Source: Burkholderia catarinensis (lineage in GTDB: Bacteria > Pseudomonadota > Gammaproteobacteria > Burkholderiales > Burkholderiaceae). Taken from it: a stretch of DNA of 64,000 nucleotides. This document shows, in pieces, positions 29,764 to 42,652 of the stretch. Within the stretch, counting starts at the first letter, position 1. The number at the start of each line of letters is the position of its first letter. The position numbers and the translations under genes are program-made. Below the pieces are notes generated by a model, which was not told the origin of the DNA, searched no databases, and saw nothing but the letters and a program-made list of their open reading frames with translations. Where the stretch lies: contig NZ_MDEQ02000015.1 in the NCBI RefSeq assembly GCF_001883705.2, positions 1-64,000 of the forward strand, in the 5' to 3' direction.

Positions 29764-30177
29764 TCAGCCGATCGCGGCCGGCGGCCCCTTGAATTCGAGC
29801 ATGTTGCCTTCGGGATCGAACAGGTAGATCGATGGCCCGTAGCCGCCGGCGCCGTAGCGCTCCGCGGGCGCGCCCGGCCGCGCGCCATGTGCGGCGAAAT
29901 GCGCGATCAGCGCGTCAGGGTCGAACGGCTCGACGCGCAGGCACAGGTGATCGAGGTTGCGTCCCGTGCCGGGCGGGCCGCTGTCGGGACGGTCGATCGG
30001 GCCGCCGACCGACAGCAGGTCGATCAGCGCATCGCCGGCGCGCAACTGCACGAGGCCCAGATCGGGCTGTTCCTTCTCCACATGGCAGCCGACGGCGTCG
30101 CAGTAAAAGCGCGTCATCGCCGCCATGTCGGTCACGCGCAGCACGATATGATCGATCGCGCGGATGGTGGGCTTCAT
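29764..30177 (-). CDS. VOC (glyoxalase-like) family protein
   Basis: 137 residues with two beta-alpha-beta-beta-beta modules. 'IDHIVLRVTDMAAMTRFY' carries the first metal-ligand His, 'LDHLCLRVEPFD' the second, and 'IYLFDPEGNMLEFKGP' the C-terminal Glu. This is the common small VOC dioxygenase/glyoxalase layout; the substrate cannot be told. It converges with yaeQ. Confidence 0.85.
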   Translation of the reverse strand: MKPTIRAIDHIVLRVTDMAAMTRFYCDAVGCHVEKEQPDLGLVQLRAGDALIDLLSVGGPIDRPDSGPPGTGRNLDHLCLRVEPFDPDALIAHFAAHGARPGAPAERYGAGGYGPSIYLFDPEGNMLEFKGPPAAIG

Positions 30178-30266
30178 GAGTGGATACTCCTTCGCAGTCG
30201 ACGAGCATCGAGTGTAGACGCATCGCGCCTGCGCCGCCCGCTGGAACGCGGCACAATCGACAGACG

Positions 30267-30335
30267 AAAAAAAGCCCGTTCACGCAGAGCGGAACGGGCT
30301 TAATCCATATCAGGAGGAGACATGGAGGAGACAGT
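30267..30335 (-). ncRNA. Candidate ~70-nt small RNA with two anti-Shine-Dalgarno motifs
   Basis: The minus strand has a complete transcription unit without a gene: promoter TTGCGT-17-TATAGT, then ~30 nt containing TCTCCTCC twice (complement of 30324-30331 and 30313-30320, 11 nt apart), then a 10-bp stem ('aagcccgttc'/'gaacgggctt', 30272-30301) and seven T residues. The TCTCCTCC motifs are complementary to strong ribosome binding sites, as in the CUCCUCCC-bearing 'cuckoo' sRNAs of other proteobacteria. The 5' end is approximate. The competing view is a 40-codon plus-strand ORF at 30322-30444. Confidence 0.6.
30272..30301 (-). terminator. Intrinsic terminator of the sRNA candidate
   Basis: Stem 'aagcccgttc'/'gaacgggctt' with a 10-nt loop; read on the minus strand it ends in seven T (30267-30273). 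No annotated gene on the minus strand reads into it from the right, which points to a short independent transcript. Confidence 0.75.
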
Positions 30336-30339
30336 TCCA

Positions 30340-30368
30340 ACTATACACACGGCGATGGTGCGACGCAA
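30340..30368 (-). promoter_or_regulatory. Promoter of the sRNA candidate
   Basis: On the minus strand, -35 TTGCGT (30363-30368) and -10 TATAGT (30340-30345) with a 17-base spacer. The predicted start is near 30333-30336. Confidence 0.6.
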
Positions 30369-30565
30369 TATTCCGAATGCAAAAAAACGTCAGGACGACG
30401 ATTTGTCGCATCCGCACTGCAGCAAAATGGTGACGGGGCGATGACGAAAACCGTGCCGGAGCAGACGGCGCACGCGATTCGCCGGATTTATCTTCAATTG
30501 ATGTGACCCCGGTTCGCCGTCAGAATCACAGAGCAAGATTCAGGGCGCGACGGCACGTGCCGATG

Positions 30566-30605: not shown

Positions 30606-31697
30606 ATGAAAACCGCCTATCCGACCGACGATGCCCGCTGGGGCGCCGTGACCGAGCGCGATCCGCATGCGGACGGCGCGTTCTTCTATGCCGTGAGCAC
30701 GACCGGCGTGTTCTGCCGCCCGACTTGCGCGTCGCGGCTGCCGCGTCGCGAGCATGTGTCCTTCTTCGCCGATCCGGCGGCTGCGCGTGCAGCCGGGTTC
30801 CGGCCCTGCAAGCGTTGCCAGCCGGAAGGGCTGCCGCGCGAGCTCGAGATCGTCAACCGCGCGTGCGCGGTGCTCGACGCGCATGCCGAGCGGCTCACGC
30901 TTCAGCAACTGAGCGATGCCGTGCACGTGAGCCCGTTCCACCTTCAGCGGCTCTTCAAGCGCGTGGTCGGCGTGTCGCCGCGGCAGTACCAGGCCGCGCA
31001 GCGCGGCGCCGCGCTGCGGCAGGCGCTGCAAAGCGGGCAGCCGGTCACGCAGGCGGCCGTGGACGCGGGCTTCAACTCGCCGTCGCGGCTCTATGCATCG
31101 GTGCCGCGCGAGCTCGGGATGGCGCCGTCCGCGTTCCGCCGCCAGGGCGCCGGCCTGCGGATCGACTATACGACCGCACCGACGTCGCTCGGCACGGTAC
31201 TCGTCGCCGCGACCGAACAAGGCATCTGCCGGATCGCGTTCGGCGATGAACCGGCGTCGCTTGTCGGCGAGCTGAAGGACGCGTTCGCGCGCGCCGAACT
31301 GGTCGAATCGTCGGCACGGCTCGCGCCGTTCGTCACGCAGATCCGTGCATACCTGGATGGCACGCGGCACGCGTTCGACCTGCCGCTCGACATCGCGCCG
31401 ACGGCGTTCCAGCAGCGCGTGTGGGAAGCGCTGACGCATATTCCGTACGGCGAAACGCGCAGCTACTCGGAGATCGCCGAGGCGCTCGGCTCGCCGCGCG
31501 CGGTGCGGGCCGTCGCGTCCGCGTGCGCGTCGAACCCGGTCGCGATCGCGATCCCGTGCCACCGCGTCGTGCAAAAGGGCGGCGCGCTCGCCGGGTATCG
31601 CTGGGGCGTGCGCCGCAAGGCGACGCTGCTTGCGTCCGAGGCGCGTCATGTGCACAACGATGAAACCGAGTCCGTTGCGGAGGGCAGCGTAGTTTGA
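30606..31697 (+). CDS. ada: Ada: bifunctional methyl-DNA repair protein and transcription activator
   Basis: 363 residues with all three Ada modules. The N-terminal zinc module has Cys37, Cys41, Cys68 and Cys71 ('GVFCRPTC', 'PCKRC'); methyl-phosphotriester transfer to one Cys turns Ada into an activator. An AraC-type helix-turn-helix follows ('TLQQLSDAVHVSPFHLQRLF'). The C-terminal O6-methylguanine methyltransferase has 'IPCHRVV' with the acceptor Cys. It overlaps alkA by 4 nt, forming the adaptive-response operon. Confidence 0.96.
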   Translation: MKTAYPTDDARWGAVTERDPHADGAFFYAVSTTGVFCRPTCASRLPRREHVSFFADPAAARAAGFRPCKRCQPEGLPRELEIVNRACAVLDAHAERLTLQQLSDAVHVSPFHLQRLFKRVVGVSPRQYQAAQRGAALRQALQSGQPVTQAAVDAGFNSPSRLYASVPRELGMAPSAFRRQGAGLRIDYTTAPTSLGTVLVAATEQGICRIAFGDEPASLVGELKDAFARAELVESSARLAPFVTQIRAYLDGTRHAFDLPLDIAPTAFQQRVWEALTHIPYGETRSYSEIAEALGSPRAVRAVASACASNPVAIAIPCHRVVQKGGALAGYRWGVRRKATLLASEARHVHNDETESVAEGSVV

Positions 31698-42546: not shown

Positions 42547-42652
42547 CGGCCGGCATGCGTCGCGCGGTTCGGGCACGGGGCGCCCGCCGCGCGGCCGCTG
42601 CATTCCGGCTGCATTCCGGTAGGCGGAATTGGCTTTTGGAAACTGAAAACTG

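Follow-up and report, generated by a model that had tools for sequence, protein, structure and literature searches.

The minus strand between a glyoxalase-family gene and a divergently transcribed ada gene of Burkholderia catarinensis, lying in a window of 64,000 nucleotides (the whole stretch of DNA analyzed here), raises the question of what is encoded by a compact unit in which a promoter, two anti-Shine-Dalgarno (anti-SD) stretches, and a terminator follow each other closely (Table 1). A first-pass annotation made from the letters of the sequence had read it as a candidate small RNA (sRNA) of about 70 nt with a duplicated anti-SD motif; Rfam, published RNA-seq from B. cenocepacia J2315, and comparative data point to an independent sRNA of about 67 nt with two anti-SD stretches. 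The observation holds, its interpretation was right in essence, and the RNA is a member of an already described family; a reading of raw sequence without tools can pick out a real regulatory RNA. In all likelihood, the unit is a trans-acting sRNA of the Rfam family RF02278, very probably the ortholog of ncS05, which has its own promoter and terminator and masks the ribosome-binding sites (RBSs) of a limited set of mRNAs.

Table 1. Features of the sRNA unit and its two neighbors, in coordinates of the window.
Feature	Position	Strand	Evidence
Small RNA, RF02278, probable ncS05 ortholog	30266..30333	-	cmscan 75.8 bits; searches of own genome and relatives
-35 box TTGCGT	30368-30363	-	Sequence, pattern search
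-10 box TATAGT, 17-nt spacer after TTGCGT	30340..30345	-	Sequence, pattern search, column conservation
Operator-like conserved block TTGCGTCGCACCA (-35 box plus spacer nt 1-7)	30356..30368	-	Column conservation in 92 rows; pattern search of the 8.2-Mb genome
Unpaired 5' tail UGUCUCC, complementary to GGAGACA	30327..30333	-	Mean unpaired probability 0.99-1.0, 76 distinct sequences
First TCTCCTCC	30324..30331	-	Pattern search
Second TCTCCTCC, 11-nt period from the first	30313..30320	-	Pattern search
Hairpin 1, 8-bp stem	30304..30326	-	Fold
Hairpin 1 loop UCCUCCU, holding most of the second anti-SD stretch	30318-30312	-	Fold; unpaired probability 0.96-1.0
Intrinsic terminator hairpin and T7 (T7 = 30273-30267)	30267..30301	-	Fold
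Glyoxalase-family gene, downstream, same strand	29764..30177	-	Pfam PF00903
ada, divergent neighbor	30606..31697	+	Pfam Ada_Zn_binding, HTH_18, DNA_binding_1

The RNA unit (30333-30266) is 67-68 nt long. The proposed promoter, TTGCGT-17-TATAGT, is indeed present on the minus strand (30368-30340), and the duplicated TCTCCTCC was found at the 11-nt period that had been noted for it (30331-30324 and 30320-30313). No other exact copy exists in the 64-kb window, whichever strand is read; 13 occur in 861 kb of this genome, the two of the sRNA included, without a second exact pair at the same spacing. The -35 box has only three of six bases in common with TTGACA, and a simple consensus scan missed both the promoter and the terminator, so both rest on sequence reading, fold, and conservation. 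The RNA is predicted to fold into two hairpins at -30.9 kcal/mol, against a mean of -11.1 (sd 2.0) for shuffled sequences (z -9.85; none of 200 shuffles equal). Hairpin 1 (30326-30304), which carries the second motif in its loop, is absent from the first-pass annotation. The terminator had been called perfect, with seven T, and facing away from all genes: the run of T is there (30273-30267), but the stem consists of ten pairs, one bulged base, and three further pairs, and the start of the same-strand glyoxalase-family gene (30177) lies 88 nt past the RNA end. From its sequence, the sRNA would be transcribed from its own sigma70-like promoter and would end at its own terminator; transcription of the J2315 copy has been shown by others. 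In the fold model, both the UGUCUCC of the 5' tail and the UCCUCCU of the loop are predicted to stay single-stranded.

A covariance search, which the first-pass annotation had proposed as a check, gives a full-length match above the gathering score: with cmscan, the unit matches RF02278 (“Betaproteobacteria toxic small RNA”) over model positions 1-64 of 64 at 75.8 bits, against a gathering score of 50. The family traits are present, namely two hairpins with CU-rich stretches in the 5' tail and the first loop, as is dispersal in multiple copies, with six RF02278 matches in the same genome, four of them over the cut-off. Across 61 genomes, matches occur in 51—the own genome, all 36 congeners with four to seven copies each, and 14 of 24 others of the same order—and exceed the cut-off in 44, with none in any of 14 control genomes. 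Two weak relatives in the own genome lie below the cut-off: one on contig C18 (L005, 42.5 bits) with a single TCTCCTCC, and one on contig C57 (L006, 32 bits) in which ACACCTCCTTGA replaces TCTCCTCC. In the literature, RF02278 is represented by the double-hairpin RNAs of B. cenocepacia J2315—ncS03, ncS05, ncS27, and ncS62—which the sections drawn on here describe as short independent transcripts mapped by RNA-seq (PMC4603805, PMC5688073). Set against the published description of these RNAs (Sass 2015, 2017), the window sRNA fits their covariance model and, like them, has two hairpins, two CU stretches, and a terminator, with no difference of substance seen.

Among these siblings, ncS05 is reported as a 67-nt RNA on the minus strand in the gene order <- <- -> (PMC4603805), the same length, strand, and gene orientation as the window copy, where the order is glyoxalase <-, sRNA <-, ada ->, and the sRNA match spans 68 nt including one base beyond the T7 run. 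On contig C9 of a close relative (G003), RF02278 copies lie at 42587 (plus strand) and 300714 (minus strand), 258,127 nt apart; the published starts of ncS03 (221314, plus) and ncS05 (479440, minus) (PMC4603805) differ, by subtraction, by 258,126, in the same orientations as the G003 pair. The minus-strand copy of G003 is flanked by the same glyoxalase and ada genes, with 95-97% protein identity to those of the window, and the two loci are 93% identical over 421 bases around the sRNA. Because of the length, the orientation, the neighbors, and the matching 258-kb spacing in G003, sequence comparison makes the window copy very probably the ortholog of ncS05, that is, the same gene in another Burkholderia genome. 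The available sections of the double-hairpin RNA literature contain no identification of BCAL0436 and BCAL0437, the neighbors of ncS05, as glyoxalase and ada. For ncS05 they give a coverage of 2588 at the start site, with 3.5-fold higher expression in biofilm and 6.9-fold in glucose medium (PMC5688073), along with predicted targets, and they name no tested targets (PMC4603805, PMC5688073).

Other systems share parts of the design. One is S17S of Bordetella pertussis, a 67-nt form whose anti-RBS sites, at the 5' end and within a loop, are unpaired and which has many transporter targets; for it, the accessible part of the paper reports homology to RF02278; unlike the window sRNA, whose 5' end adjoins its promoter, it is processed from a 190-nt transcript (PMC11722255). 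The Neisseria NmsR siblings likewise place two unpaired CU stretches over RBSs and have metabolic targets, as related in PMC5688073, but they are tandem copies, and the window sRNA scores only 22.8 bits against their model (RF02877), below its gathering score of 52. Sub-threshold matches on the minus strand at 30266-30355 are those to anti-hemB (RF02837, 25.5 bits) and to NmsRb, the RF02877 match just given; both may reflect a shared CU-rich design, not descent. The likeness to the CUCCUCCC sRNAs of other proteobacteria that the first-pass annotation had drawn holds as an analogy only, none of them being among the five Rfam matches up to E 1; the same is true of the alphaproteobacterial CCUCCUCCC sRNAs, with which no homology was seen. 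NfeR1, which we take to be one of these CCUCCUCCC sRNAs, presumably has an anti-SD motif in common with the window sRNA.

In the mechanism that we propose, the tail and the loop would pair with GGAGACA and AGGAGGA at mRNA RBSs—direct pairing has been shown for Bordetella S17—and this would block the start of translation, chiefly of mRNAs whose products take up or degrade organic acids, amino acids, and aromatic compounds. RBS masking, as already suggested by the first-pass annotation, appears a probable function in the light of Rfam, published RNA-seq, and comparative data. We looked for such sites in 861 kb of the genome, 10.5% of the whole, where 640 open reading frames (ORFs) were called; of these, 639 starts were used for the complement counts and 637 for the duplex test; since the caller was a simple home-made one (78% coding), some starts will be wrong. 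AGGAGACA and GAGGAGAC each occur before 10 of 639 starts and in none of 639 windows inside genes. The 10-nt 5' end forms duplexes of -10 kcal/mol or below at 107 of 637 starts, as against 14 and 17 of 637 in two control windows. Across 40 shuffled versions of these ten bases, the count averaged 61.6 and never exceeded 99 of 637 starts; the real 107 thus surpasses what composition yields by less than twofold. The start-site enrichment is mostly simple anti-SD behavior, any anti-SD sequence scoring near start codons. Within the GGAGNNN heptamers near starts, GGAGACA is the commonest, yet it exceeds the expectation for independent bases only modestly (15 of 212 versus 8.2; P 0.02).

At least eight contiguous complementary bases are found at 15 of 637 starts. 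According to Pfam, 13 of these 15 genes are transport or catabolic genes, compared with 8 of 20 random genes on a generous count (Fisher P 0.007), a sorting that is our own and was made after the Pfam results were known; the random genes were drawn from 595 lying whole within one fetched stretch, and for one of the 15 targets the Pfam scan covered only the first 202 of 473 residues. The 13 comprise a POR-domain protein, which we take to resemble indolepyruvate oxidoreductase, HPPD, two aldehyde dehydrogenases, two MFS carriers, a CitMHS carrier, two solute-binding proteins, a GMC oxidoreductase, an M20 peptidase, a nitronate monooxygenase-like protein, and a TauD-like enzyme; the other two are one protein with a domain of the 3-demethylubiquinone methyltransferase type and one without a Pfam match. 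GGAGACA precedes hppD in 24 of the 25 congener rows counted out of 30 loci fetched, even where the remaining leader differs; the left-out rows, which do not have it, come from other genera (L222, L223, L224, L226) or from a congener paralog (L227). Similarly, the leader of the POR-domain gene has GGAGGAGAC in 23 of 25 congener rows. The conservation at these two genes may be that of the SD itself. The overall target pattern agrees with published work, as far as the consulted passages go: ncS27 affects the catabolic genes for phenylalanine, tyrosine, and other substrates and attenuates growth on these compounds (PMC10987360), 55-80% of the interactions predicted for the double-hairpin RNAs lie around the start codon (PMC5688073), and target repression by S17S in Bordetella is lost and then regained by matched changes in Site 1 (PMC11722255).

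A different reading is that the RNA is a general translation inhibitor, a toxin-like RNA, in line with the name of the family, competing with 16S rRNA at all SD sites. According to a citation in PMC4603805, the family was discovered through clones that were toxic to E. coli, and overexpression of ncS27 slows growth (PMC5688073). However, the available sections of the later papers report that the effects of ncS27 depend on the substrate (PMC10987360) and that S17S hardly affects E. coli growth (PMC11722255), so toxicity is not common to all relatives. Further, contiguous complementarity of at least eight bases is confined to the few starts counted above. We regard such general inhibition as quite unlikely and favor a trans-acting sRNA with a limited set of mRNA targets.

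The comparative picture comes from a scan of public contigs with the exact 20-mer GTCTCCTCCATGTCTCCTCC as bait, which recovered at least 120 loci, a sample in which conservation inside these 20 bases is uninformative because the loci were chosen by them. The loci listed belong to Burkholderia, Paraburkholderia, Caballeronia, Pandoraea, Trinickia, Mycetohabitans, Pararobbsia, Paucimonas, and a few MAGs. Beyond the bait, TGATATGGATT comes next in most of the 120 loci listed, and the 5' terminator arm takes 23 forms among them. The 3' part nevertheless folds at -8 kcal/mol or below in all 76 distinct sequences among the loci listed (excluding L040, at a contig end, and L091, without a clear terminator), and the arms change in ways that keep them paired: the seventh stem position, for example, reads C-G (61) or U-A (11). 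Over the same 76 sequences, the mean unpaired probability of tail and loop is at least 0.96. In a paralog from the own genome (L003), the bases of hairpin 1 differ yet still pair. At least one of ada, glyoxalase, yaeQ, and alkA is found in the fetched stretch at 92 of the 120 loci listed, and all four at 52; ada is present at 87, divergent in every one of these 87 and 190-394 nt from the motif.

The position of the glyoxalase-family gene, on the same strand with its start codon 88 nt past the terminator, could indicate that the unit is its 5' leader or attenuator instead of a free sRNA, and the co-occurrence of ada and glyoxalase at 67 of the 120 loci listed is in keeping with this. On the other hand, 20 of the listed loci have ada without a glyoxalase match, 13 of them with at least 1000 nt downstream of the RNA start, which disfavors a glyoxalase leader. 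The same RNA body is also found at listed loci with other neighbors, and the consulted account of ncS05 describes a separate short transcript (PMC4603805). A leader function is hence very improbable, and a free sRNA remains by far the preferred reading. The other strand offers a further reading, scarcely credible, in which a 40-codon protein is encoded on the plus strand (30322-30444) and the minus-strand features are incidental: although its ATG is kept in all rows listed, as it must be since it lies inside the bait 20-mer, and 19 of the 92 relatives listed, mostly close Burkholderia, retain a stop at codon 39-41, the other 73 rows stop elsewhere or stay open to the end of the stretch (L066 is too short), there is no Pfam match, and substitutions in codons 20-39 of 16 of the 19 rows (those with at most 15 differences) number 21, 55, and 40 at positions 1, 2, and 3, which runs contrary to coding constraint, so that the conserved ORF which the first-pass annotation had named as counter-evidence is not seen. 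A 7-codon ORF inside the sRNA (30323-30300) was also considered and rejected: in a paralog of the own genome (L001) the loop is one base shorter and the frame is lost, and GGATTCA in many listed relatives removes its stop.

The sRNA is otherwise an ordinary further member of its described family, and the loose ends are its conserved promoter element and its linkage to ada. In 92 of 93 rows among the loci listed (L066 being too short), column conservation extends beyond the TTGC of the -35 box to G, C, C, and A in the spacer at columns -29, -28, -25, and -24, which are kept in 89-91 of 92. As judged from the sequences, this seems to exceed what we would expect of a sigma70 promoter. A relaxed pattern for the TTGC-N3-GCA-N-CA element before TATA picks out only the sRNA site in the 8.2-Mb genome; both pattern searches of the own genome for a regulon of this element ended at this one site, so that no co-regulated genes emerged. 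The element is conserved in the ada-linked copies, and all eight Pandoraea copies among the loci listed (L054, L084, L097, L098, L114, L123, L140, and L141), which are without the four neighbor genes, also carry TGC-N3-GCA-N-CA. A common upstream motif in three of the four J2315 copies is already reported in the available part of Sass 2017 (PMC5688073), so the element described here is an extension of that finding and not a discovery.

Other copies have other promoters. A second type with GAAAACCC between -35 and -10 is seen in 12 of the 28 listed copies without the four neighbors (L037, L044, L059, L061, L070, L077, L091, L103, L130, L139, L144, and L152), and one copy of the own genome (L004) has GGGTTTTCCC in this place. 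The four above-threshold copies of the own genome have identical first ten bases and different upstream sequences, which suggests siblings with several inputs and one output—they would feed several signals into a single metabolic brake. Should the linkage to ada and the conserved element of the promoter be functional, they would tell which signal this sibling serves. One could thus envisage the siblings as one RNA effector with several dedicated inputs, a putative regulator of this copy reading TTGC-N3-GCA-N-CA, and the placement beside ada and alkA linking DNA alkylation or a related stress to a shutdown of nutrient uptake and breakdown; we hold this scenario to be unlikely as it stands. Upstream of the sRNA promoter, on the same strand, there is a second terminator-like hairpin followed by seven T (30400-30382).
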